Origin: an uncultured Oscillospiraceae bacterium
GTDB lineage: Bacteria > Bacillota > Clostridia > Oscillospirales > Ruminococcaceae
Assembly: GCA_949298535.1 (NCBI GenBank)
Contig: CASFXA010000061.1
Span: 1 to 40,956 of the forward strand
DNA length: 40,956 bases
Direction of reading: 5' to 3'
Of this stretch, positions 1-11,772 are shown one piece after another. The notes beneath the pieces were generated by a model. That model made no database searches, had not been told where the DNA came from, and saw only the letters and a program-made list of their open reading frames with translations. The translations under genes and the position numbers were made by a program. Positions within the stretch are counted from its first letter, which is position 1, and every line of letters begins with the position of its first letter.

Positions 1-200
1 GAGCGTGTCGAAAAAGTTCGACACGCTTCCAGGGGGTATCCCATACCCCCTGGATACGATTCTGGTTCCAGAAGAAACCAGAATCGATACCCCCGGTTTC
101 GCGCCCCTGTGGGCGCGGGTCGGGGGATAAAAATCAGGCGCCTGTCCTGATTTTTATGATTTTGAATGTTGTTTCCATTTTGAAGGTGGGTTTTTCGACA
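1..200. repeat. Palindrome cluster with short inverted ends (MITE- or REP-like)
   Basis: A non-coding block built almost entirely of adjacent palindromes. Arms 2-12/17-27 (11 bp), 29-39/43-53 (11 bp), 57-67/76-86 (11 bp), 100-106/111-117 nested in CCCCCG/CGGGGG at 90-95/121-126, and 127-138/146-157 (12 bp). The block is bounded by the perfect 10-bp inverted pair TGTCGAAAAA (6-15) and TTTTTCGACA (191-200). No reading frame of interest is present. It looks like a small non-autonomous repeat inserted between genes. The left end may be cut by the window edge, and no target-site duplication can be verified. Confidence 0.6.
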
Positions 201-207
201 GCCTGGC

Positions 208-250
208 AGGAGCCTCCGCATCACAGATGCGGAGGCTCCTGTTTTTGTTT
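208..250 (+). terminator. Rho-independent terminator for an upstream plus-strand unit
   Basis: A perfect 15-bp stem (208-222 with 226-240, loop ACA) is followed on the plus strand by GTTTTTGTTT. On the minus strand no T run follows it, so it best terminates a plus-strand transcript coming from before the window. It lies just beyond the 3' end of the minus-strand regulator gene and may help stop that transcript too. Confidence 0.75.
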
Positions 251-267
251 CGCGCCCCAAGGGGATT

Positions 268-987
268 TCAGGGCTGATTCTTCAAATAAGAGGTGATGTT
301 GGTTCGCTCCGGATTGATATAGGAGAGGGTATATTCCACCAAGCGTCCGGAGGTGTCGGAAACCTGATGATTGATGCAGAAAACGGGGCTGTTGTCAGGC
401 AGTTCCAGCAGCTGTGCGTCTTCGTCCGTGAGAACGGTCACCATCAAAGTTTGATGGGCCTTGGCCAAAATAATATTGTTTTTTTCAAAGTTGTCATAAA
501 GGGATTCCACTGAAAAATCAATTTTTTCCACATCGGGAATCAGAGAGAAGGGAAAATAGGTATCGTCAATGACAATGGCATGAGCGTTTCCGATCCGCAC
601 CCGGGTCAGATGATACAAGGGAGTTCCAACAGGCAGCTGGAAACAGCGGGAGAGCTTATACCCCGCCGGAACCTGCTGGGCGATCAATACTTTGCTGGTG
701 TGAACCACTCCCTGGGCTTTCAGCTGGGTACCGAATCCCCTGATGCTGGAGAAGTTCAGACGCATCCGTGCCGAGCGCACAAAATTTCCCCGCCCCTGGT
801 GGGCTGCAATCAACCCCTCCTGACGCAGATTTTTTAGGGCCGCACGAACCGTCAGCCGATTGATACCATAGATTTCTGCCAGCCGCCGCTCCGATGGAAG
901 GCAGGTGCCGATGGCGTATTCCCCGCTGGCAATTTTGTCCCGAATCAGATTTTCCAATTGAACATGAATGGGTAGTGTGTTTTGCAA
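268..987 (-). CDS. GntR family transcriptional regulator with UTRA domain (FrlR/FraR-like)
   Basis: 239-residue HutC-subfamily regulator. Residues about 5-70 form a canonical GntR winged helix (LPSERRLAEIYGINRLTVRAAL region, then a wing ending in GRGNFV). Residues about 85-235 form a UTRA effector-binding domain. Such proteins bind phosphorylated sugars or amino-sugar derivatives and release DNA. The start is a TTG at 985-987, preceded by AGGAGG about 10 nt upstream. It lies 21 bp downstream of a second UTRA regulator in the same direction, and the pair is divergent from the fructosamine operon at 2014-8248. It is therefore inferred to control that operon, with a fructosamine 6-phosphate as a plausible effector. 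The family call is firm; the effector is inference. Confidence 0.88.
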   Translation of the reverse strand: MQNTLPIHVQLENLIRDKIASGEYAIGTCLPSERRLAEIYGINRLTVRAALKNLRQEGLIAAHQGRGNFVRSARMRLNFSSIRGFGTQLKAQGVVHTSKVLIAQQVPAGYKLSRCFQLPVGTPLYHLTRVRIGNAHAIVIDDTYFPFSLIPDVEKIDFSVESLYDNFEKNNIILAKAHQTLMVTVLTDEDAQLLELPDNSPVFCINHQVSDTSGRLVEYTLSYINPERTNITSYLKNQP

Positions 988-1008
988 AGACAGGGAACCT
1001 CCTTTGCT

Positions 1009-1743
1009 TTAGGTTGAGCCCCTCAGGACTGGGGAACTTCTGTAGCAGGTGCTGCGGCTGGGATTTTTGTACACCGAGTACTCAAAAACGTCTCCGAACT
1101 GGCTAAGGGTTTGACAGGACAGAATCATCAGCGGTTCCCGGGGAGCGAGATGGAGCAGCTGACAATCCTCCTCGGTGGGGGTGCCGATGAGAAAATCCAG
1201 AAATTTGTTATCGGCTTCGATGCCATATTCCTGTTCCAGCACATCATACAGGGAGCGGGAAGAAAGAGCATATTTCTGCAGTTGAGGAAAACGGTTTTCC
1301 GACAGATAGGAGGTAATCAGCACACAGATCCCTTCCTCAGATTTCCACAGCTGGCGCAGACAATACACGCTGCTGCCAAGGGGCAGATTCAAAGCGTTGG
1401 AGACTACTTTGGAGGCCTCCACCACGGAAAGGGACAGCGCGTTGGTAAAACTGAGGGAAGGAAGCCCGCCGGAGGAAAGATTATTGGAGGGCCAGCCCCA
1501 GGCGTTGAAAACCAATCTGGAAGGGGCTACCAGATATTGCCCCTCCTCGGGGTTGCCGTCCAAAGTACCGTCATAAAAAAGCTGGAGCAGGGCTCTGGAG
1601 GTCAGGTCTTCGGGAAACAGCAGCAGCTGTGAAAGTTCTTTTACAGAAGGCAGAGGCGCACCTGGCTGCAGCTCTTCTTCCGCGATCAGCTGGACGATAC
1701 GGTCCATCGCCCCGATGACAGTGGGATTAAAAAGGCTTCTCAC
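1009..1743 (-). CDS. UTRA-domain regulator with a degenerate GntR winged helix
   Basis: 244 residues from the GTG at 1741-1743. This start is chosen because AGGAGG (1753-1758) lies 9 nt upstream, whereas the ATG at 1771-1773 has no ribosome site. The N-terminal region keeps the LPS..ELS helix of GntR proteins. The usual recognition helix (S-R-x-T-V-R-x-A-L) is replaced by FPEDLTSRALLQL, and the wing is altered. The C-terminal part is a UTRA domain that aligns by eye with its neighbour (YDVLEQEYGIEAD versus YDNFEKNNIILAK). It is first in a two-regulator operon and its promoter overlaps a palindrome. It may bind DNA poorly and act as a heteromeric partner or effector sensor. UTRA membership is fairly certain; the role is inference. 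Confidence 0.75.
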   Translation of the reverse strand: MRSLFNPTVIGAMDRIVQLIAEEELQPGAPLPSVKELSQLLLFPEDLTSRALLQLFYDGTLDGNPEEGQYLVAPSRLVFNAWGWPSNNLSSGGLPSLSFTNALSLSVVEASKVVSNALNLPLGSSVYCLRQLWKSEEGICVLITSYLSENRFPQLQKYALSSRSLYDVLEQEYGIEADNKFLDFLIGTPTEEDCQLLHLAPREPLMILSCQTLSQFGDVFEYSVYKNPSRSTCYRSSPVLRGST

Positions 1744-1763
1744 CGTATGCTTCCTCCTTCTTG

Positions 1764-1784
1764 AGGCGCCCATATGCGGCGCCT
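1764..1784 (-). promoter_or_regulatory. Leader hairpin before the first regulator gene
   Basis: Arms AGGCGCC (1764-1770) and GGCGCCT (1778-1784) enclose a 7-nt loop. The hairpin lies between the promoter and the GTG start of the minus-strand regulator, just upstream of its ribosome site. It could modulate translation; no function is shown. Confidence 0.4.
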
Positions 1785-1790
1785 GGGACT

Positions 1791-1810
1791 TATGGTACTA
1801 GTATACCATA
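1791..1810. promoter_or_regulatory. Operator palindrome overlapping the minus-strand regulator promoter
   Basis: TATGGTA-N6-TACCATA (1791-1797 and 1804-1810). On the minus strand, TATACT (complement of 1800-1805) is a good -10 box for the regulator operon and lies inside the palindrome; the matching -35 is weak. The GGTA/TACC core also occurs in the second palindrome at 1972-1995. HutC-type GntR proteins typically bind such sites, so autorepression is inferred. Confidence 0.6.
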
Positions 1811-1933
1811 GAAAGGGTCACAAATGAAATAGCTCTTATCAAAAACTTTACCAATTCCATTCTTTTGCTTAAATGACAGAAAATTGCCCTCAAATTATGT
1901 ATAGTTTTAATTTTAGTAGTGAATATATTTTTA

Positions 1934-1962
1934 TTGACTTTGCTTACACAGGGTGGTAAACT
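1934..1962 (+). promoter_or_regulatory. Promoter of the fructosamine operon
   Basis: TTGACT (1934-1939), a 17-bp spacer, and TAAACT (1957-1962). Predicted transcription start is near 1969, immediately ahead of the palindrome at 1972-1995, so a repressor bound there would block start or escape. Confidence 0.65.
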
Positions 1963-1971
1963 TATATCATA

Positions 1972-1995
1972 AACTGGTATGAGACTATACCAGTT
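1972..1995. promoter_or_regulatory. Operator palindrome for the fructosamine operon
   Basis: Perfect inverted repeat AACTGGTAT-N6-ATACCAGTT, arms 1972-1980 and 1987-1995. It lies just after the predicted transcription start and before the GAGGAGG ribosome site of the kinase gene. Its GGTA...TATACC core matches the other palindrome at 1791-1810. The two adjacent UTRA regulators are the obvious candidates to bind it. Confidence 0.7.
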
Positions 1996-2013
1996 GCAGA
2001 GAGGAGGAAACAG

Positions 2014-2841
2014 ATGTTTCGTATTATCGGTATCGGAGACAATGTGGTGGACCGATACCTCTATAAAAACAAAATGTATCCCGGTGGAAATTCCGTCAAC
2101 GTACCTGTTTTGGCCAAACGTTCCGGCTTGGCGGAGGCGGCATACATAGGCTGCCTGGGTACTGACGCAGCCGGAGCTCATGTGCTGGCGGCTTTGCGCA
2201 GCGAGGGGCTGGATGTCTCCCGGGTTCGTGTGATGGAGGGCCCCAACGCTTATGCCAACGTGACGCTGGTGGATGGGGACCGCACCTTTTTGAGCGGCGA
2301 TCAGGGCGGTTCAATAGGTGTTTCCCACAACATCGTCCTGGACAAGGAAGATGAGGCGTTCATCGCTACCTATCAGCTGATTCACACCAGTGTTTACAGC
2401 GGTATCGACGGTATGCTTCCTCAGATGAAGGCCATCGGGCCGGCCATCTCCTATGATTACTCCGATCATCTGGACCTGGAGGAAATTAAGGGCACCCTGC
2501 CCTATGTGGATTTCGCCATTTTCTCCGGCGGCGATGGGGATGAAAAGGTTCTTCAGGACTTTATCACCAAAGTGGCGGAGATCGGTCCCAAGCACGTGCT
2601 GATGACCAAAGGCTCCAAGGGCTCCATGCTTTACCGCGACGGTGTTTATTACCACCAGGGCATCTACCATATCGATCATGTGGTGGATACCATGGGAGCG
2701 GGAGATTCCTTCATCGCCCGGTATCTGGCCGGCATTTATAATGGAGAGGAAACCCAGCAGAGCATGGCAAACGCCGCGGAATTTGCCGCGAAAAATTGCC
2801 TGGTGGCCGGTACCTTTGGTTACGAGACCGACATCCGTTGA
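2014..2841 (+). CDS. frlD: PfkB-family fructosamine kinase (fructoselysine 6-kinase-like)
   Basis: 275 residues, close to the length of known FrlD kinases. It would use ATP to phosphorylate the sugar C6 of an imported Amadori product (fructoselysine, fructose-asparagine or similar) in the cytoplasm. Seen: N-terminal GIGDNVVDRY and the GGNSVNV sugar-binding stretch of ribokinase-fold enzymes, and the PfkB C-terminal signature DTMGAGDSFIA at 225-235 with the catalytic Asp at 231. The start ATG follows GAGGAGG at good spacing. It is the first gene of the operon, with the transporter and two deglycase-like genes downstream. The PfkB fold is certain. Fructosamine specificity rests on the neighbouring SIS deglycases and general likeness to FrlD/FraD; another sugar kinase activity is possible. 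Confidence 0.82.
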   Translation: MFRIIGIGDNVVDRYLYKNKMYPGGNSVNVPVLAKRSGLAEAAYIGCLGTDAAGAHVLAALRSEGLDVSRVRVMEGPNAYANVTLVDGDRTFLSGDQGGSIGVSHNIVLDKEDEAFIATYQLIHTSVYSGIDGMLPQMKAIGPAISYDYSDHLDLEEIKGTLPYVDFAIFSGGDGDEKVLQDFITKVAEIGPKHVLMTKGSKGSMLYRDGVYYHQGIYHIDHVVDTMGAGDSFIARYLAGIYNGEETQQSMANAAEFAAKNCLVAGTFGYETDIR

Positions 2842-2853
2842 ACAAGGCGTTCG

Positions 2854-2886
2854 CAGCGCGGGGAATCTTTCGGCAATACCGCGCTG
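2854..2886 (+). promoter_or_regulatory. Intercistronic hairpin before the binding-protein gene
   Basis: CAGCGCGG (2854-2861) pairs with CCGCGCTG (2879-2886). There is no T run, so it is not a terminator. It sits in the kinase to binding-protein gap and could protect the 5' end of a processed binding-protein mRNA. Confidence 0.4.
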
Positions 2887-2940
2887 TAGCATATGCACAA
2901 GCCAACAACACAAAAACAAATGACAGGAGGACTACAACGA

Positions 2941-4278
2941 ATGAAAAAACTGATATGCCTGCTTCTGGCACTCGCATTGACCCTGGGTCTGGCCGCTTGC
3001 GGCGGCAGCACCGCCTCTTCCTCCACGGCCTCATCCACTGCCAGCAGCTCCGGGGAAGCAGCCTCCGGAGGCTCCGGTGATCAGATCACCCTGAAGTTCC
3101 TGCACAAGTGGCCCCAGCCGGAGAACGTCGGTTATTTTGACGAGATCGTTGCGGCTTATATGGAAGAGCATCCCAACATCACCATCGTTTCTGAGGCTGT
3201 CGCCGATGAGCCCATTAAGGATAAGCTCCGCGTGATGATGGGTTCCGATGACCGTCCCGACGTCTTCTTCTCCTGGAGCGGCGAGTTCGCCAGAAAGTTC
3301 ATCGCTGCCGACGCGGTTCTGGATCTGACCGACGCCCTGGACGCTGATGACGGCGCCTGGAGAAGCACCCTGATGGAAGCCGGCCTGGAGCCCTTCAGCT
3401 CTGACGGCAAAAACTATGGTATTCCGCTGCGCCTCAACGGCAAGTTCTTCGTTTACAACAAGGAAATCTTCGAGCAGTACAACCTGACTCCTCCCACCAC
3501 CTGGGATGAGTTCCTGACCCTCTGCGAGACCCTCAAGAGCAACGGCGTTGCTCCTCTGGCCTTCGGCAACCAGTATCCTTGGGCTGCCTGCCACTACATC
3601 ACCGGCCTCAACCAGAAGCTGGTTGCTCAGGATGTCCGTATGAAGGACTATGAGAAGAGCACCGGCGAGTACACCGATCCCGGCTATGTCACCGCTCTGA
3701 ATATGTTCAAGGAACTCAACGACAAGGGTTACTTCAACGAGTTCCCCAACTCCATCTCTCACGATATGGCTCACCAGAACTTTGCCATGGGCCAGTGCGC
3801 CATGCTCTATGTGGAGCTGGAGGAGTTCAACACCGTTAACAACAACATGGAAGGCACTCCTTGGGGCTTCTTCGCAATGCCCGCCATTGAGGACGGAGCC
3901 GGCAACCAGAACTTCCTCACTGGCGCTCCCGACGGCTTTATGGTTTCTTCCACCACCAAGTATCCTGACGAGGCCATCGATTTCCTGAAGTATATGACCA
4001 GCGTCACCAGCGCTCAGAAGATGATCGATATGCTCGGCTGGCCCAGCCCTGTTGTCGGCGCTCATACTGCTGACAACTCTCCTGAGTACCTCATCGAAGG
4101 TATGCAGGCGGTTCAGGAAGCCGAAGGTATGGCTCTGTGGCTGGATACCGATATCGACATCCGGATCTCCGACGTTTACCTGCCCGGTCTCCAGGATCTG
4201 CTCAACGGCGACGTCACCTCTGAGGGCCTGATGCAGAAGGTTCAGGAGATTGCTGCGACTGTCAGAGCAGAGGGCTGA
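2941..4278 (+). CDS. Carbohydrate ABC transporter substrate-binding lipoprotein
   Basis: 445 residues from the ATG at 2941, which follows AGGAGG and begins the signal peptide; an upstream in-frame ATG at 2893 would bury that signal and is rejected. The lipobox LAAC places the lipidated Cys at residue 20, followed by a Ser/Ala-rich linker to about residue 42. The rest is a family 1 (SBP_bac_1, MalE-like) fold: ITLKFLHKWPQPENV at the mature start, repeated aromatic ligand-contact residues, and GWPSPV near the C terminus. It captures the operon substrate outside the membrane and delivers it to the two permeases. Context suggests an Amadori compound. The ligand cannot be read from sequence. It is the most highly translated-looking gene of the operon in codon choice. 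Confidence 0.9.
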   Translation: MKKLICLLLALALTLGLAACGGSTASSSTASSTASSSGEAASGGSGDQITLKFLHKWPQPENVGYFDEIVAAYMEEHPNITIVSEAVADEPIKDKLRVMMGSDDRPDVFFSWSGEFARKFIAADAVLDLTDALDADDGAWRSTLMEAGLEPFSSDGKNYGIPLRLNGKFFVYNKEIFEQYNLTPPTTWDEFLTLCETLKSNGVAPLAFGNQYPWAACHYITGLNQKLVAQDVRMKDYEKSTGEYTDPGYVTALNMFKELNDKGYFNEFPNSISHDMAHQNFAMGQCAMLYVELEEFNTVNNNMEGTPWGFFAMPAIEDGAGNQNFLTGAPDGFMVSSTTKYPDEAIDFLKYMTSVTSAQKMIDMLGWPSPVVGAHTADNSPEYLIEGMQAVQEAEGMALWLDTDIDIRISDVYLPGLQDLLNGDVTSEGLMQKVQEIAATVRAEG

Positions 4279-4311
4279 TTCTTTCGGTCTTGATCTCCCC
4301 GCAAAAAGTCT

Positions 4312-4340
4312 ATCCCCCTGGTCCTCAGGGCCAGGGGGGA
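4312..4340 (+). promoter_or_regulatory. Intercistronic hairpin after the binding-protein gene
   Basis: ATCCCCCTGG (4312-4321) pairs with CCAGGGGGAT (4331-4340), 9-nt loop, followed by GAAAAAGGAGG, which includes the ribosome site of the permease. There is no T run. Such hairpins behind binding-protein genes usually protect the upstream mRNA 3' end and lower permease expression; that role is inferred here. The second ABC locus has a similar hairpin at 36451-36486. Confidence 0.55.
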
Positions 4341-4362
4341 TGAAAAAGGAGGCCAAACACGA

Positions 4363-5259
4363 ATGTATAAATCTAAACGCGGCATTTGGCTGTTCATTTT
4401 GCCGGGCTTCCTGTTGATGACAGTCTTTGTATTCTTTCCATTGATTCTGAACTTTGTCTACAGCCTGTTCCAGTGGAGCGCTTTCTCCCAGAGCAAGGTG
4501 TTTGTAGGCATTGAATACTACAAACGAATTCTGCAAGACCCCATCATCGTTACGGCACTGAAGAACAACACTCTTTACGCGATTGTTTCCGTTCTTTGCC
4601 AATGCGGTATCGGTCTGATTTTGGCCGCCTTGCTGGAAAACCACAAGATGCGCCGCTTTCAGCCTTTCTTCCGCACGGCTTATTTTATTCCGTCCATCAT
4701 TTCCATTACCGTTATTGGTTTGTTGTGGCAATTTGTCTACAATCCCCAGATCGGTATCGTCAACCCCCTTCTGGAAGCGCTGGGGCTGGGAAAATACACT
4801 GCTGACTGGCTGGGTTCCTCTGAAACAGCTATGGGCGCGGTGATCTTTGTTTCCCAGTGGCAGAACATCGGCTATATTATGCTGCTGTACATCGTGGCCA
4901 TCCAAAAGATCGACGAATCCATCTTTGAATCCGCCACCATTGATGGCGCCACCGGGATTCAGAGCTTTTTCCGTATTCTGGTGCCGCTGGTGAAGGATAC
5001 CATCCTGGTCACCTGCGTCATCACCGTCATCGGAGCCTTCCGTGTGTTCAGTGAGGTTTACGTCATGACAGGAGGCGGCCCCGGACATACCACCGAGACG
5101 CTGGCTTCCTATATGTACCGCGTGGGATTCCGCAATGATGAGATGGGCTATTCAGCCGCTATTGCGACGCTGATTTTCGTCATCCTTTTGGTGCTCACAT
5201 TCATCCAGATGAAACTTTCCGGTAACTTTAACGAGATGAAGAAGGTGAGCAAAGAATGA
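4363..5259 (+). CDS. Carbohydrate ABC transporter permease (MalF/UgpA type)
   Basis: 298-residue inner-membrane permease. Hydrophobic segments are spread over the length, starting at about residues 8-32. The EAA loop that docks the ATPase is visible at about 189-210 (ESATIDGATGIQ...VPL). It forms the transport channel with the next gene, with which it overlaps by 4 bp (ATGA at 5256-5259), a sign of translational coupling. No ATP-binding subunit is encoded nearby, so a shared MsmX/UgpC-type ATPase elsewhere is expected. Family assignment is firm; substrate is inferred from the operon. Confidence 0.92.
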   Translation: MYKSKRGIWLFILPGFLLMTVFVFFPLILNFVYSLFQWSAFSQSKVFVGIEYYKRILQDPIIVTALKNNTLYAIVSVLCQCGIGLILAALLENHKMRRFQPFFRTAYFIPSIISITVIGLLWQFVYNPQIGIVNPLLEALGLGKYTADWLGSSETAMGAVIFVSQWQNIGYIMLLYIVAIQKIDESIFESATIDGATGIQSFFRILVPLVKDTILVTCVITVIGAFRVFSEVYVMTGGGPGHTTETLASYMYRVGFRNDEMGYSAAIATLIFVILLVLTFIQMKLSGNFNEMKKVSKE

Positions 5260-6095
5260 AGACGAAAAACCACCTGAGAACAAGAATTTTCCAGGGCGTA
5301 ACCCTGGTGGTCCTTTCCGCCTATGCAGTCACCGTTATTTACCCGCTGCTGTGGATGATCGTCAGTGGTTTCAAGACCAACAAGGAAATTTTCGGCGACA
5401 CCTGGGCTCTTCCCGCCAACTGGTCGCTGGACAACTATAAGCAGGCCTGGGACATCGGCGTTGGCACCTATTTTGTCAACAGCGTCATTGTGACGGTTTC
5501 CGCCATGGTGCTGACCATCTTTTTCGCAGCCCTGATCGCCTTTGTCTTTGCCCGTTTCCAATTCCCCTTCAAAAAGTTTCTGTTCGCCCTTGTGCTGGGC
5601 GGGATGATGCTTTCTCCGGAGGTCAGCTTGATTTCCCTGTATAAAATGCTTCAGAGCATGAAGCTGTATAATACATATTTCGCGTTGATTCTCCCTTATT
5701 CGGCGTTCAGGATTCCTTTTTCCGCTTTTCTGATGTGGTCCTACTTCAAGGATCTCCCCCTTGAGATCGAGGAGTCGGCCTACCTGGATGGATGCAGTTC
5801 CTTCCAGATGTTCTACAAAATGATTCTCCCTATGAGTAAGCCGGTGGTGGCCACCGCTGCGTTGCTGGCGGCCATGACTTTTTGGAACGAGTTCATGTTC
5901 GGCTTGGTCTTTATCGAAAGCTCTTCCCTGAAGACCATCCCCATCGGACTGATGAACCTCCGCGGCACCTTGACCACAGAGTGGGCCATTATGCTGGCGG
6001 GCCTGACCATCTCTGCGTTGCCGATGATTGTTGTGTTCCTGGTGTTCCAGAAACAGCTGGTCAGAGGTATGACCGCAGGCGGTGTCAAAGGATAA
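5256..6095 (+). CDS. Carbohydrate ABC transporter permease (MalG/UgpE type)
   Basis: 279-residue second permease subunit. The N-terminal membrane segment at about 13-37 ends in YPLLWMIVSGFK, typical of MalG-like proteins. The EAA loop is at about 172-196 (ESAYLDGCSSFQ...LPMSKP). It starts inside the stop codon of the preceding permease. It partners that permease and the lipoprotein at 2941-4278 for substrate import. The downstream gap of 69 bp leads to the first SIS gene without an obvious terminator, so the operon continues. Confidence 0.92.
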   Translation: MKTKNHLRTRIFQGVTLVVLSAYAVTVIYPLLWMIVSGFKTNKEIFGDTWALPANWSLDNYKQAWDIGVGTYFVNSVIVTVSAMVLTIFFAALIAFVFARFQFPFKKFLFALVLGGMMLSPEVSLISLYKMLQSMKLYNTYFALILPYSAFRIPFSAFLMWSYFKDLPLEIEESAYLDGCSSFQMFYKMILPMSKPVVATAALLAAMTFWNEFMFGLVFIESSSLKTIPIGLMNLRGTLTTEWAIMLAGLTISALPMIVVFLVFQKQLVRGMTAGGVKG

Positions 6096-6164
6096 TTTTC
6101 AGATTGGTAAAAGACGGCAGGCCGATTCCCGGCAGGCTGTCCAGATAAAAATGGAGGTATCGCT

Positions 6165-7157
6165 ATGTTGAAATTTGACAGAGCCGAGTTCATTGAGAAA
6201 GAAAAGACAGCCCTTGGCATGATTCCCCAGGTCGAAAAGATTGTGGACGAAGTGTGCCAGAAGGGCTATTCCAACATTTTCTATGTGGGCATCGGCGGCA
6301 CCGTTACTTATGCCTGGCAGGTGGAATCCATTGCGAAGTCCAATTCCACCCTCAAGCTGTATGTGGAAAACGCTGCGGATTTCCTGGCGATGGGCAACAA
6401 GAATTTTAATAAGGACAGCATCATGGTGATCGAGTCCGCTTCCGGCGACACCAAGGAAGTGGTGGCTGCCGTTGAGTATGCTCACACCCAGGGTGTCAAG
6501 GTCATCGGCTTTATCGAGAAGCCCGATTCTCCCTTGGCCAAGATGGTGGACTATCTCATCACCAATGATGGCGGCACCTATTATTACTGGTACGCTGTGA
6601 CCCTGCGCTTCATGTACAATAATGGCGAGTTCCCCGAATACGACGAGTTTATGGCCGAGCTGAAGAATATGCCTGAGGCCCTTGCCGATGTTCAGGAGAA
6701 GAACGATGAGAAAGCCAAAGCCTATGCGGAGCGCTATAAGGATGAGCCGCTGCAGTATCTGATGGGCTCCGGCAACCTGTGGGGCTGGGCTTACTGCTAT
6801 GCTATGTGCATTATGGAAGAGATGCAGTGGATGCGCACCAAGTCCATTTCTGCTGCTGACTTCTTCCATGGCACTCTGGAAGTCATCGAGCGCGACTCTG
6901 TCGTGGTTCTCTTCAAGGGCGAGGATAATGGCCGCAAGCTGATGGACAGAGCGGAGAATTTCCTTCACACCATCTGCAACAACGTCATCGTCTTCGATAC
7001 CAAGGACTTTGAGCTGAAGGGTATCAGCCCCAAATTCCGTGGCCTGGTGTCTCCCTTTGTTATGAACGCCGCCTGCCGTCGTGTTTCCGTCCATCTGGAG
7101 AACGAGCGGAAGCATCCTCTGGAGATCCGCAGATATTATCGTCGTCTCAACTACTGA
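6165..7157 (+). CDS. SIS-domain sugar-phosphate deglycase-like protein (paralogue 1)
   Basis: 330-residue protein with two SIS (sugar isomerase) halves, GlmS/FrlB/FraB-like. Family members split fructosamine 6-phosphates into glucose 6-phosphate and a free amino acid. Seen: IFYVGIGGTVTYAW near residue 38, the phosphate-site segment IESASGDTKEVV near 89, and the C-terminal IRRYYRRLNY ending typical of the group. The residues matching the two reported catalytic positions of FraB are kept: Glu219 in MEEMQW and His235 in FFHGTLE. The conserved SGE just before the His region in FrlB/FraB is AAD here. Start ATG follows GGAGG. Its relation to the other SIS gene suggests a different substrate or a joint complex. 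The family call is good; the exact reaction is inferred. Confidence 0.78.
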   Translation: MLKFDRAEFIEKEKTALGMIPQVEKIVDEVCQKGYSNIFYVGIGGTVTYAWQVESIAKSNSTLKLYVENAADFLAMGNKNFNKDSIMVIESASGDTKEVVAAVEYAHTQGVKVIGFIEKPDSPLAKMVDYLITNDGGTYYYWYAVTLRFMYNNGEFPEYDEFMAELKNMPEALADVQEKNDEKAKAYAERYKDEPLQYLMGSGNLWGWAYCYAMCIMEEMQWMRTKSISAADFFHGTLEVIERDSVVVLFKGEDNGRKLMDRAENFLHTICNNVIVFDTKDFELKGISPKFRGLVSPFVMNAACRRVSVHLENERKHPLEIRRYYRRLNY

Positions 7158-7198
7158 TTGAGCGGGGATCAATGCGGTTGTTCTGACAATCAGCAAAG

Positions 7199-7234
7199 GG
7201 TCCGGAGGCGGACAGTCACAGTCCGCCCCGGACC
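7199..7234 (+). promoter_or_regulatory. Hairpin between the two SIS genes
   Basis: A stem of 14 pairs with one bulged A (7199-7213 with 7221-7234, loop AGTCACA). No T run follows, so full termination is unlikely. It may be an mRNA processing or stability element separating the two deglycase cistrons. Confidence 0.5.
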
Positions 7235-7276
7235 GAAAATTGATGTTCATTGTATGAAGAAGGAGTTTTTGGTTTT

Positions 7277-8248
7277 ATGAAAGCGGAGCATATTGAACAG
7301 TACAAGAAAGCGGTAGCCGCTGTCGGCGCCAAAAAGATCAAGAATATCTATCTGGTAGCCTGCGGCGGTTCCAAGGCTTTTATGAATCCTTCCCAGTATA
7401 TCTTTGACCTGGAGACGGATGTTCCTGCGGCGGTTTATTCCTCCAATGAGTTTGTCCATCGCTGCCCCAAGGGCCTGGGCGAAGGCAGCGTAGTGATTAC
7501 CTGCTCTCATTCTGGCAATACTCCTGAAACCGTTAGAGCGACTTCCCTTGCTCGGGAGAAAGGCGCTTTGACCATCGCTTTTTCCAATCTGGTGGATTCT
7601 CCCCTGTGGAAAGCTGCGGAGTATCCCATCCATTATGATTGGACTGGCTGTGATTTCGCTGACAGCCGTTATGGCATGATCTATGCTGTTACCTTTGGTA
7701 TCCTCAATGTTTTGGCTCCCTGCGAGAAATATGAGAAGGCCATCGCCACTCTGGACGTTCTCCAGGCCTGCATTGACCGCGCCAAGGAGCTTCACAGCGT
7801 CCGGGCCAACAAGTTCGGCAAGGACCACAAGAGAGACAGCCTGATCTACACCATGGCCAGCGGCAGCAACTATGGCAGCGCCTATTCCTTTGCCATCTGC
7901 CTGCTGATGGAAATGTCTTGGGTTAACTCCAATTCCATCCATTCCGGCGAGTATTTCCATGGTCCCTTTGAGTGCACCGATTATGATGTGCCTTTCCTGC
8001 TGCTCAAGGGCATCGACCAGTGCCGTCCTTTGGATGAGCGCGCTGAGAACTTCTGCAAGAAGTACAGTGATCGGGTCACCGTCATTGACGCTGCTGAGTT
8101 TGACCTCCATGAGGTTCCCGAGGAGCTGAAGTGCTATTTCGCCGCTGTGGTGACCGATTATGTCCTCAGAGACTATGCTGAGGCGCTGGCCGATCACAGA
8201 GGTCATCCCCTCACTGTCCGCCGCTATATGTGGAGAATGGAGTACTGA
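7277..8248 (+). CDS. frlB: SIS-domain fructosamine-6-phosphate deglycase (FrlB/FraB-like, paralogue 2)
   Basis: 323 residues from the ATG at 7277; AAGGAG lies 12 nt upstream. An in-frame start at 7250 would lack a ribosome site. Two SIS halves: IYLVACGGSKAFMNP near residue 24, CSHSGNTPETV near 76, and the C terminus HPLTVRRYMWRMEY, strikingly like Salmonella FraB as I remember it. Residues matching FraB catalytic Glu and His are present: Glu212 in LLMEMSW and His228 in SGEYFHGPFE. It would release glucose 6-phosphate and an amino acid from the phosphorylated Amadori product made by the kinase at 2014-2841. It is the last gene of the operon, ahead of a strong terminator. The symbol denotes the family; fructose-asparagine (fraB) or fructoselysine (frlB) substrate is unresolved. 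Confidence 0.82.
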   Translation: MKAEHIEQYKKAVAAVGAKKIKNIYLVACGGSKAFMNPSQYIFDLETDVPAAVYSSNEFVHRCPKGLGEGSVVITCSHSGNTPETVRATSLAREKGALTIAFSNLVDSPLWKAAEYPIHYDWTGCDFADSRYGMIYAVTFGILNVLAPCEKYEKAIATLDVLQACIDRAKELHSVRANKFGKDHKRDSLIYTMASGSNYGSAYSFAICLLMEMSWVNSNSIHSGEYFHGPFECTDYDVPFLLLKGIDQCRPLDERAENFCKKYSDRVTVIDAAEFDLHEVPEELKCYFAAVVTDYVLRDYAEALADHRGHPLTVRRYMWRMEY

Positions 8249-8316
8249 TTTTTTTCCCTGATGGTTGACAGAGCAGAAAAACAAGCCCTTTGGACATTGT
8301 TTTTTGATTAAAACCT

Positions 8317-8369
8317 ACCCCCGCCCGCTTCAGGAGCTGCTTACCTGAAAGCGAGCGGGGGTCTTTTTG
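8317..8369 (+). terminator. Rho-independent terminator of the fructosamine operon
   Basis: ACCCCCGC and CGCTT/CAGG (from 8317) pair with CCTG, AAGCG and GCGGGGGT (to 8362), then CTTTTTGATTTT follows. A long GC-rich stem with a T run ends the unit that starts near 1969. Confidence 0.85.
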
Positions 8370-8736
8370 ATTTTGACAGACGAAAATTCTCTGTAAGTTT
8401 TGTAGAGCGCCATGAAAACGTTTGTATTGTATGGAAACAGGGATTTTCCATCCGCCTCCCTCAATGAACAAAGGATCCAGGCGCCGGGTGAAAAGCGGAT
8501 ATTGCCCGCGTTCCCGCCCCTGAAGCCTCCGGCTTTGCTCTTCCGCCCGATTTTTCAGCGTGTTTCGGAGATGGAACGGGCTTCCGGCAAGGCTGACAAC
8601 GCAGCTTTCCTCCCCGGCCAAGGGAAAAACGCCGCTGGAGGCAGGTCCGGCTTGGGAAAACGGTGATGCGCCTGGTCCGCAGAGGGTATCAGCTGAGAGG
8701 GGAAACCGGGATCTCCGGGTTCCGGGAAAAGCGGCC
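8370..8736. other. Intergenic stretch with no recognised gene
   Basis: About 370 bp between the terminator and the next promoter. It is GC-rich with several local complementary patches (for example ACCGG...CCGGGT around 8705-8720). No frame on either strand shows a recognisable protein or ribosome site, and I cannot match a known riboswitch. Confidence 0.4.
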
Positions 8737-8766
8737 TTGTGTAGAATGGAAGGAAAATGGTATAAT
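8737..8766 (+). promoter_or_regulatory. Extended -10 promoter for the M29-like/GH42 pair
   Basis: TTGTGT (8737-8742), 18-bp spacer, then TATAAT (8761-8766) preceded by TGG, an extended -10. Transcription would start near 8773 and enter the M29-like gene after a leader of about 55 nt. Confidence 0.65.
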
Positions 8767-8827
8767 CGGGCTGAAAGGTGAAAATTTTGAAGAATCCCCC
8801 AGCGGACAGGCATACAAGGAGGAAAGA

Positions 8828-9796
8828 ATGGAAAATATGTACTTATCCCGCGGCGCTGCCAAAGTGGTGGAGGTGTGTGCCGGGGTACAGGCAGGAGAGC
8901 AGGTGTTGGTCATCACCGAACAGTCCCGGATGTCCATTGCCCAGGCGCTGGCGTCCCAGGTCTATCGAGTGGGCGGGGAGCCGGTGCTTTGCGTAATGGA
9001 GCCCCGCCGGCAGGATGGCCAGGAACCTCCCCGGCCCATTGCGGAAGCCATGAAAGGAAGCGATGTTTTTCTGTCTGTGGTGGGGAGGTCCATCACCCAC
9101 ACCCACGCGGTCAAGGAGGCCATTGCTGCCGGTTCCCGTGGATTGGTGCTGACCCAGTTCACCGAAGAGATGATGATTCATGGCGGCATTGAGGGGGATT
9201 TTAAAGCCCTTAAACCGGTGTGCATCGCTATGGCTCAGGCATTGGCAGGGACGGAAAAGGTGCTGCTTACCACTCCCGGGGGCACCCATCTGGAGTATTC
9301 TGCCCGGGGACGCAGGGGCAATCATCTGTACTGTATGGTGGAGAAAGGACAATTTTCCACATTGCCCACGGTGGAGGCCAATGTCTCGCCGGTGGAAGGA
9401 TCGGCCAATGGGATCATTGTGGCAGATGGCAGCATCCCCTATATTGGAATCGGCGTGCTGGAACAGCCGGTGATTCTCCAGGTGAAAGAGGGCAGGATCA
9501 TCCATATCGAAGGAGGCCGCCAGGCTAAAATGCTGGCGGAGGATTTGGCTGCCAAAAATGATCCCCAGGTCTACAATGTGGCGGAGCATGGGGTGGGTTT
9601 GAATCCCTGCTGCCATTTCTGCGGTTTTATGCTGGAGGATGAAGGGGTATACGGATCCTGCCATATCGGGATCGGCACCAGCATCACCCTGGGAGGAAAG
9701 GTGAAGGCCAGCTGCCATTACGATGTCATTATGAAAAACGGCACCATTGTGGCAGATGGCAGAACGCTGATGGAGAATGGAAAGGTACTCCTGTAA
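8828..9796 (+). CDS. M29 aminopeptidase / NicX-like metalloprotein
   Basis: 322 residues from the ATG at 8828, just after AAGGAGGAAAG. Longer in-frame starts (from 8663) precede the promoter -10 and are rejected. The C-terminal half has the metal-ligand pattern of the M29 leucyl aminopeptidase/2,5-dihydroxypyridine dioxygenase fold: Glu190 in PVEGSANG, Glu253 in AEHGVGLNP, His279 in GSCHIGIG and His297-x-Asp299 in CHYDV. Peptidases of this family remove N-terminal residues; relatives are Fe(II) ring-cleaving dioxygenases. The N-terminal half is shorter than classic M29 enzymes (about 370-410 residues). It is followed after 32 bp by a GH42 gene, so the two are probably co-transcribed. Fold assignment is moderate; substrate unknown. 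Confidence 0.65.
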   Translation: MENMYLSRGAAKVVEVCAGVQAGEQVLVITEQSRMSIAQALASQVYRVGGEPVLCVMEPRRQDGQEPPRPIAEAMKGSDVFLSVVGRSITHTHAVKEAIAAGSRGLVLTQFTEEMMIHGGIEGDFKALKPVCIAMAQALAGTEKVLLTTPGGTHLEYSARGRRGNHLYCMVEKGQFSTLPTVEANVSPVEGSANGIIVADGSIPYIGIGVLEQPVILQVKEGRIIHIEGGRQAKMLAEDLAAKNDPQVYNVAEHGVGLNPCCHFCGFMLEDEGVYGSCHIGIGTSITLGGKVKASCHYDVIMKNGTIVADGRTLMENGKVLL

Positions 9797-9828
9797 CAGG
9801 TCAGGAGGCAGGGAAAGGAGCAGCAAGA

Positions 9829-11772
9829 ATGTTGTTGGGCGTGGATTATTATCCGGAGCAGTGGGCTCCTTCCATGTTGGAGGAGGATCTGGAACGGATC
9901 TGCCAATTGGGATGCAATGTCATCCGTGTGGGTGAATTTGCCTGGGAGCTGATGGAGCCGGAGGAGGGGAGGTATGACTTTTCCTTTTTCGATCATGTTA
10001 TTGCGAGAGCCAAAGCGAAGGGATTGCAGGTGATTTTCGGCACTCCCACTGCCACGCCGCCCGCCTGGCTGGTTGCCCGTTGGCCCGAGATGCTGTCCCG
10101 TTTCCAGGATGGCAGTCCCAGAGCCTTCGGCGGACGCCATGTCTGCTGCTACAGCAGCGCTGTTTATCGGGAATATTGCCGGCGGATCGTTACCAAACTG
10201 GCGGAGCATTATCGGGAAGAGGAGGCCATTATCGCCTGGCAGCTGGACAATGAGCTGGGCCATGAGGACAGCGATATTTGCTGGTGTGATCACTGCCTCA
10301 GCAGGTTCCGCCAATGGGTGAAGGACCGTTTTGACGGGGACATCCAGCGCCTCAACCAGCGGTGGGGCACCGTTTTTTGGGGGCAGCAGTACAGTGATTT
10401 CCAGCAGATCCCCTTGCCCGCCCCCACCATCACCACCCATAATCCCGCTTTGCGCCTGGATTGGGAGCGGTTTCGGGCATTTTTGCTCCGGGATTTTCTG
10501 AAGGAGCAGGCTCAGCTGATCCGGCGGGTGATTTCCGGGGCGCGGATCATCCATGATTTTCCCGGAGGCGGTTTGGATAAGCACGCCGATTATGCCGCCA
10601 TGGCCAATGTGCTGGATCAGGCAGCCTACAACAACTATCCCGTATGGGGCGGTCAGAAGGAGCCTTTGCCTCCCAGCGAAATCGCCTTTGGCCTGGACTA
10701 TATCCGGGGCCTGCGGCGGGAAAATTTTCTCATTACCGAGGCCATCATGGGCGCTCAGGGTCATGACATTACCGGCTATCTGCCCCGTCCGGGGCAGGGA
10801 CGGCTGTGGAGCTGGCAGGGTATGGTCAGAGGCTGCGAGGGGCTATTATATTTCCGCTATCGGGGAGCGCTGACGGGAGCAGAACAGTTCTGCTACGGTT
10901 TGCTGGATCCGGACAATATTCCCCGGCAGCGTTTTTTTGAAGCGCAGCGTTTTTTCCGGGAGGTCACGGCTTACGAAGATGTCCTTTCCACGCCGGTGGA
11001 CAGCGATGTCTGTATCCTCTATGATTTTGATTCCCTTGCTTCCTTCCGGATTCAGCGGCAAAGCCTGCTGCTGGATTGCCAGCGGGAGATGAAAGAGATT
11101 CATGGAGCCTTTTTCCGGAGCAATCAGATGGTGGATGTGATTCCCGCCGGGGAAGATTTTTCCGGCTACAAGGTGGTGGTAGTGCCCAACATGATCGTTA
11201 CCGACCAGAAGTTTCTGGCGCGTTTGAAGGATTATGTGGCGGCGGGAGGCTGCGCCGTGGTCACCTACCGCACTTCGGTGAAGGATCGGGATAACAACCT
11301 GGTGTTTGGAAAGACCTTGCCGGTGGACTGCGGCGATCTGCTGGGGATCACGGTGGAAGGAACCGAAAGCGTTCAGGAATACCGCAGCATTCCCCTGCGC
11401 GCCAAAGAGGGACGGGCAGGGACCGGAGGAGTATTCCGGGATATGCTCAAACCGGCGGAAGCGCAGCCCCTTTATTGGTATGACGATCCTTTTTACCGGG
11501 ATTATGCCGCTGTCACGGTGAACCAATGGGGCGGGGGCCGGGCTTATTATCTGGGCACCTCCCTGGACCGTCAGCTGCTGGAAGGGGTACTGAAAGAGGC
11601 AATGGCTTTTAAAGGGTTGACGCCTCTGGAAACGCCGGAGGGGGTAGAGGTGGTCACACGCCGGCGGGAAGGCAGAAAGGTGCGATTTTTGCTGAACCAC
11701 AATGACCACCCGGTTTCGGCGCTGGGATGCCGGCTGGAAGCCTTTGGGGTAGCGATGGAGGAGCTTTTGTAA
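9829..11772 (+). CDS. GH42 family beta-galactosidase
   Basis: 647 residues, the usual length for GH42. It starts with GVDYYPEQW, the family hallmark. The acid/base Glu142 is seen in WQLDNELG and the likely nucleophile Glu304 in LITEAIMG. Cysteines 151, 153 and 156 (CWCDHC) plus Cys106/107 match the zinc site of many GH42 enzymes. After the TIM barrel come a trimerisation region (about 390-590, GYKVVVVPNMIV) and a short beta domain. There is no signal peptide, so it acts in the cytoplasm on imported beta-galactosides such as plant or host oligosaccharides. It is second in a pair with the M29-like gene, with a terminator following. No transporter is linked directly. Confidence 0.93.
   Translation: MLLGVDYYPEQWAPSMLEEDLERICQLGCNVIRVGEFAWELMEPEEGRYDFSFFDHVIARAKAKGLQVIFGTPTATPPAWLVARWPEMLSRFQDGSPRAFGGRHVCCYSSAVYREYCRRIVTKLAEHYREEEAIIAWQLDNELGHEDSDICWCDHCLSRFRQWVKDRFDGDIQRLNQRWGTVFWGQQYSDFQQIPLPAPTITTHNPALRLDWERFRAFLLRDFLKEQAQLIRRVISGARIIHDFPGGGLDKHADYAAMANVLDQAAYNNYPVWGGQKEPLPPSEIAFGLDYIRGLRRENFLITEAIMGAQGHDITGYLPRPGQGRLWSWQGMVRGCEGLLYFRYRGALTGAEQFCYGLLDPDNIPRQRFFEAQRFFREVTAYEDVLSTPVDSDVCILYDFDSLASFRIQRQSLLLDCQREMKEIHGAFFRSNQMVDVIPAGEDFSGYKVVVVPNMIVTDQKFLARLKDYVAAGGCAVVTYRTSVKDRDNNLVFGKTLPVDCGDLLGITVEGTESVQEYRSIPLRAKEGRAGTGGVFRDMLKPAEAQPLYWYDDPFYRDYAAVTVNQWGGGRAYYLGTSLDRQLLEGVLKEAMAFKGLTPLETPEGVEVVTRRREGRKVRFLLNHNDHPVSALGCRLEAFGVAMEELL

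Follow-up and report, generated by a model that had tools for sequence, protein, structure and literature searches.

A six-gene unit at positions 2014-8248 of contig CASFXA010000061.1, from an uncultured Oscillospiraceae bacterium, very probably encodes a pathway for the use of fructosamines; the whole stretch analysed, 40,956 nucleotides, is called the window here. The unit is a known kind of system, and its combination of a kinase, an ATP-binding cassette (ABC) importer and two deglycases is a variant of that kind. We favour, with moderate confidence, the reading that it is a Bacillus subtilis-type frl operon with an added deglycase for epsilon-fructoselysine-6-phosphate, in which one importer and one kinase serve both linkage classes. 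Judged from sequence relationships, the two deglycases probably divide alpha and epsilon fructosamines between them, a view held slightly less firmly after a check on the tree position of the second enzyme. Glycated amino acids are plentiful in heated food and arrive in the gut. If multi-deglycase operons do handle both linkage classes, then frlD-type markers would not capture the range of substrates, for which the set of deglycases would be a better predictor; frlD served as the main marker of fructoselysine use in one survey (PMC9749803). The paired clades also offer a natural data set for alpha versus epsilon discrimination, a question left open in PMC9609667.

Genes were called across the window and Pfam domain matches were judged against curated cut-offs, with NCBI models scored separately. 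All six genes lie on the forward strand, and they encode a PfkB protein resembling the fructosamine 6-kinase FrlD (2014-2841), an FrlO-like ABC solute-binding protein (2893-4278), an FrlN-like permease 1 (4363-5259), an FrlM-like permease 2 (5256-6095) and two SIS proteins, SIS1 (6165-7157) and SIS2 (7277-8248). Every Pfam score exceeds its cut-off (PfkB, 106 bits; SBP_bac_1, 145; BPD_transp_1, 61 and 51; SIS, 46 and 62). The most likely start codon of SIS2 is the ATG at 7277, which is preceded by AGAAGGAG, while an in-frame TTG at 7250 gives a longer reading. These positions and families agree with the preliminary description, which had listed one PfkB kinase, one ABC importer and two SIS proteins; the importer, of the sugar type, consists of the binding protein and two permeases, and the unit encodes no ATP-binding subunit. 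When the genome was searched for the MalK fold, one match emerged, a UgpC-type ATPase outside the unit (489 bits; cut-off 432). A single UgpC-type ATPase elsewhere in the genome fits the shared arrangement of B. subtilis, where the shared ATPase MsmX can power the frl importer (PMC12632257).

Tree position and fold of the two SIS proteins are more informative than their catalytic residues. SIS1 falls in the clade of the Salmonella 6-phosphofructose-lysine deglycase with support of 100/99, and in clade membership, fold and its Glu/His pair it agrees with the GfrF/Salmonella FrlB deglycase family; it is a probable epsilon-fructoselysine-6-phosphate deglycase. Its solved relative 8GLR bears the title of a deglycase for 6-phosphofructose lysine, and a further structure, 2A3N (stm4540.s), is one that we take to be GfrF. 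SIS2 has B. subtilis FrlB as its nearest solved relative and fold (49% identity), joins the group of that enzyme with moderate support (87/82; 82 in another tree), and is a probable alpha-fructosamine-6-phosphate deglycase. The preliminary description had held that placement of both proteins in GlmS-like or AgaS-like isomerase clades would refute its interpretation; as for GlmS, both lie outside the GfrE/GlmS group (support 98; 96/92 in a wider tree). A GfrE-like role for SIS2 was considered and is not supported by the trees, in which the putative GfrE proteins group with GlmS. These GfrE stand-ins come from loci L100 and L109 and were named by gene order; no GfrE frame was found in the gfr regions of two Enterococcus faecium plasmids. 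Likewise, "E. faecium GfrF" is the name given here to the SIS gene adjoining the phosphotransferase system (PTS) in L121. That plasmid (NZ_AP027295) also holds a SIS fragment of 195 amino acids at L121:5630-6214 that is closer to SIS1 (62% identity) than is the plasmid's full-length SIS protein (42%). Five frames outside 250-420 amino acids were left out, including a truncated third SIS in L072 and a 547-residue frame in L115, and the proteins of L123 and L124, which lie outside both clades, were counted in neither.

SIS1 and SIS2 share 94 identical residues over 315 aligned positions, bearing out the earlier remark that they differ greatly. Glu219/His235 of SIS1 and Glu212/His228 of SIS2 (the latter numbering fits the 323-residue form that starts at 7277) correspond in the alignment to Glu214 of FraB, the residue replaced by Ala in the chain that bears the title FraB E214A. 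The preliminary description had thus placed these catalytic residues correctly, but they do not mark deglycases: the pair is present in GlmS and in 138/138 SIS relatives examined, GfrE/GlmS-like ones included, and we rejected it as proof of deglycase function for that reason. Clade-diagnostic residues occupy six positions, which were not linked to substrate.

In the favoured reading, glycated amino acids would be brought in by the binding protein and the two permeases, driven by a shared ATPase of the MsmX/UgpC type whose gene lies outside the unit, and the single FrlD-type kinase would phosphorylate the sugar at C6. SIS1 would then take the epsilon class, as epsilon-fructoselysine-6-phosphate, and SIS2 would convert alpha-fructosamine-6-phosphates to free amino acids and glucose-6-phosphate. 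This division is proposed because epsilon-fructoselysine-6-phosphate is a substrate of GfrF and of Salmonella FrlB (PMC12675984, PMC9609667), because B. subtilis FrlD and FrlB are described as favouring alpha-glycated amino acids (PMC12632257), and because Salmonella FraB (alpha) and FrlB (epsilon) are each described as specific for their own substrate, a statement for which PMC9609667 cites unpublished data. One legend in PMC12675984 swaps GfrE and GfrF relative to its text. What the sequence shows is the content and order of the genes, their relationships, the fold, the catalytic residues, the palindromes and the terminator; the substrates and their division, how broadly importer and kinase act, which ATPase serves them and the regulation are inferred from it.

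The kinase belongs to a clade of 38 rows (support 83) that contains a piece of B. subtilis FrlD, nearly all ABC-linked kinases and some kinases with no visible importer. The ABC-linked kinases outside it are those of L035, L087 and the very long branch L036_4005, and the kinases linked to FrlA-type transporters are outside as well. The window kinase is the only strong FrlD-like match in the source genome, which is 86% complete; the next best match scores 39 bits. Kinase and importer are closest to the Synergistaceae locus L043 (48-64% identity). The binding protein shares 58% with L043, 54-58% with Bacillaceae multi-SIS loci and 38-40% with pieces of B. subtilis FrlO; it pairs with L043 (support 98), outside the FrlO clade. 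Permease 1 shares 64% with L043 and 52% over 194 amino acids with B. subtilis FrlN, and permease 2 shares 61% with L043 and 49% with FrlM. No SIS2-type gene was detected in the available stretches of L043 and of L042, which ends short upstream. SIS1 is closest to L041, L042 and L043 (56-60%), and SIS2 to G020, G161 and L041 (59-64%). Since the nearest relatives differ in this way, with L043 for kinase and importer and G020, G161 and L041 for SIS2, the unit looks like a composite of an FrlB of Clostridia type and a unit of kinase, importer and SIS1 resembling that of Synergistaceae. A saccharopine-dehydrogenase-like gene lies just 5' of the SIS1 relative in L043 (1964-3142, same strand), a weak hint of a lysine product there. 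The lysine-fermentation marker PF09043 had no match in the window's genome, a result that is uninformative because no control genome matched either.

Among characterized systems, the closest is frlBONMD-frlP with frlR of B. subtilis, which has, like the window, a deglycase, a binding protein, two permeases, a kinase and a GntR-type regulator at 34-53% identity. Against the B. subtilis region (record L128), identities are 49-53% for FrlB, 38-40% for FrlO, 39-52% for FrlN, 49% for FrlM, 39-49% for FrlD and 34% for FrlR. In that record the genes are mostly unannotated and some frames are broken; gene order supplied the names, and the comparison was confined to unbroken pieces. The unit has the kinase, FrlB-type deglycase and FrlONM-like importer of a B. 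subtilis-kind frl operon, whereas the B. subtilis operon has a single deglycase, a binding protein within the FrlO clade and a different gene order, without the GfrF-type SIS gene that stands between permease and SIS2 in the window. The gfrABCDEF operons of Salmonella and E. faecium resemble the window in having two SIS genes each, with GfrF related to SIS1. In contrast, gfr handles fructoselysine and glucoselysine by import and phosphorylation through the mannose-family PTS GfrABCD with no kinase, and its GfrE is GlmS-like, unlike SIS2; no PTS gene was found in the unit. The E. coli frlABCD-R system for epsilon-fructoselysine shares a kinase and a SIS deglycase with the window, but its permease FrlA is not of the ABC type, its one deglycase sits on a separate long branch and it encodes the epimerase FrlC, of which no relative was detected in the unit. 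The Salmonella fra system for fructose-asparagine also combines a kinase with an alpha-type SIS deglycase related to SIS2; unlike the window it has one deglycase, a Dcu-family transporter and an asparaginase (PMC4072780), and no gene of the last kind is present among the genes of 268-8248. A fructoselysine cluster of Intestinimonas AF211 pairs a kinase and a deglycase with an ABC importer (PMC4697335); the passages and figure legend cited name one deglycase and leave AF_00950, one of seven cluster genes, without a name. No operon with a kinase, an ABC importer and two deglycases was found in searchable full texts, a coverage that leaves most subscription papers outside; the matches there were frl and fra systems with one deglycase each and PTS systems of the gfr type. 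The preliminary description was fair in calling the combination a candidate for an undescribed variant; the arrangement is also recurrent and not peculiar to this genome.

That recurrence was seen in a scan of genome contigs with an alignment of the SIS1 family, which gave at least 573 relatives; the best 80 loci were kept, and the counts that follow apply to these nearest relatives alone. In 20 of the 80 loci an ABC importer is accompanied by both SIS types, in 19 of them with a kinase in view (the other, L072, is a short contig), and three SIS genes are present in seven of the 20. Two GfrF-type SIS genes with an ABC importer and a kinase occur in three further loci, members of the SIS1 clade adjoin relatives of FrlA, the fructoselysine transporter of E. 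coli, in 29 of 80 (kinase in view in 28), and four loci have a Gfr-like PTS without a kinase. Fifteen of the 20 dual-type loci are from Bacillaceae (L082 and L092 from one genome) and the others from Vallitaleaceae, Lachnospiraceae, Clostridiaceae, Oscillospiraceae and a spirochaete. Five or more different gene orders are seen. An FrlB-type partner is present in 20 of 27 ABC-type loci against 0 of 52 others (Fisher 3e-13; 79 rows); for loci of at least 18 kilobases the counts are 16 of 20 and 0 of 38. L046, whose length and gene layout match those of the contig of genome G056, was left out of this comparison and of one SIS tree; L087 (ABC-like genes plus FrlA) was coded as not ABC, L048, which has a separate PTS in addition to its ABC genes, as ABC, and L098 as ABC although its importer genes are remote (26-32%). 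Of 247 genomes searched in the family to which the window belongs, its own included, 31 have a deglycase-like SIS protein at an E value of 1e-40 or better. Among family genomes with two neighbouring matches on one contig, both SIS types with a kinase and importer nearby were seen in the window, G020 and G161, and of these three only the window has them in a single same-strand run.

Several findings weigh against the favoured reading. The join of SIS2 to the B. subtilis FrlB group is moderately supported; joining SIS2 to the FraB group instead is not rejected (approximately unbiased test, p-AU 0.14), and in the tree with GlmS and E. coli FrlB added its wider position is not fixed. The best NCBI model for both SIS1 and SIS2, fructoselysine 6-phosphate deglycase, scores 110 and 135 bits against a cut-off of 430, and the best model for the kinase, NF007321 (fructoselysine 6-kinase), scores 217 bits against a cut-off of 247; kinase and SIS proteins are related to the modelled proteins without being close copies of them. 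The closest importers, those of Synergistaceae L042 and L043, accompany SIS1 alone in the stretches examined. Importer type changes only five times on the tree, so that the link between partner and importer is not phylogenetically significant: three independent pairs lie on supported branches, with 2.2 on average in the expected direction and 0 in the opposite one. As for the enzymes used as references, the B. subtilis operon has also been named a fructoselysine operon (PMC7475707) and the species is listed among fructose-lysine users (PMC9609667). Moreover, a Salmonella gfrF mutant shows residual growth on fructoselysine, which its authors attribute to relaxed specificity of GfrE or to another deglycase (PMC12675984).

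It is possible, though we consider it unlikely, that both SIS proteins cleave the same linkage class with different amino acids, so that the alpha/epsilon division is wrong. The kinase and SIS2 do resemble alpha-type B. subtilis enzymes, and the three SIS genes beside one kinase in seven of 80 loci are more than such a split requires; the SIS1 clade, however, contains the enzyme titled a deglycase for 6-phosphofructose lysine and has FrlA relatives beside it in the 29 loci counted above. An Amadori and Heyns pair, with one SIS protein for fructoselysine-6-phosphate and the other for glucoselysine-6-phosphate, would copy gfr, where two deglycases serve these two products (PMC12675984, PMC12735817), but the putative GfrE proteins stand with GlmS and apart from SIS1 and SIS2, and we regard this pairing as quite improbable.

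The interpretation in the preliminary description has partial support: its dual-substrate, ABC-fed pathway agrees with the favoured reading, whereas its other suggestion, one hetero-oligomeric deglycase formed by SIS1 and SIS2, is very improbable. The two genes are adjacent and co-directional in the window and FraB and Salmonella FrlB are dimers (PMC9609667), yet 59 of 79 GfrF-type loci have no FrlB-type partner in the stretch examined, both proteins retain the Glu/His pair, and the two types lie on opposite strands in L041, L073 and L029. The second SIS gene could also be redundant, captured with the same function or none, as the differing kin of SIS2 and of the kinase and importer might suggest; this is improbable, since both frames are intact with conserved residues and the combination recurs across several lineages and gene orders. 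A bolder view, to which we give rather little credence, is that operons which combine a single generalist ABC importer and a single kinase with two or three divergent deglycases make up a distinct and widespread class of general fructosamine scavengers in which cleavage, not uptake, decides diet, and that at least one paralogue acts on glycation products that have no known SIS deglycase, such as glycated peptides or Amadori products of non-glucose sugars.

Two genes on the reverse strand, divergent from the operon, encode an FrlR-like GntR-UTRA regulator 1 (268-987; GntR 67 bits, UTRA 110 bits) and a GntR-UTRA-like regulator 2 (1009-1773; UTRA 74 bits, GntR 20.8 bits and below the cut-off of 27). 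Regulator 1 has 34% identity over 102 amino acids to the stretch taken as frlR in the B. subtilis record, where frlR is unannotated and was placed by position. The window contains two palindromes of the form TGGTA-N4..10-TACCA against 0.03 expected, both in the gap between regulators and kinase: TGGTA-N6-TACCA at 1793-1808 and TGGTA-N8-TACCA at 1975-1992, directly 5' of the kinase gene. These are possible operators, and GntR-UTRA repressors would probably free the operon as the 6-phospho compound accumulates; against this, no such pattern was found in the six relative loci scanned. A promoter scan of 200-9000 gave 12 promoter-like sites against 6.6 expected, one of them 5' of the kinase (1934-1962), and was not used. 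Downstream, a strong intrinsic terminator on the forward strand at about 8317-8368 (-33.9 kcal/mol, z -5.4, followed by CTTTTTG) closes the operon; the consensus scan did not list it on that strand, as its loop is longer than the scan permits. The 119-nucleotide gap between SIS1 and SIS2 folds at -44 kcal/mol (z -3.6; none of 200 shuffles as good), and the centroid gives a stable hairpin at 7199-7234 on the forward strand with no T run after it. Speculatively, this hairpin might set how much SIS1 is made relative to SIS2, or mark where an older operon once ended. An 18-pair terminator-like hairpin, listed on the forward strand, lies at 205-243, just past the end of the regulator gene 268-987.

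Other multi-SIS layouts were met along the way. Three divergent SIS deglycase-type genes accompany one kinase and one ABC importer in the Bacillaceae loci L069, L074, L075, L077, L085, L091 and L101, of which L069 and L085 are from the culturable Neobacillus niacini and N. drentensis. A different double layout is that of L036 (G029), where a kinase and ABC importer lie between two SIS genes of FrlB type. Tandem GfrF-type SIS pairs are present in G056, G263 and G135 and at L027:9188-11263, L155:4823-6896 and L157:8935-11007; neither an frl-type kinase nor an FrlONM-like importer nor a Gfr PTS was detected adjoining them. Two M20 peptidases and a major facilitator superfamily transporter come after the pair in L155. 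Within the window itself, an M29-like peptidase (a weak match) and a GH42 beta-galactosidase gene lie 3' of the terminator at 8831-11772, outside the unit.

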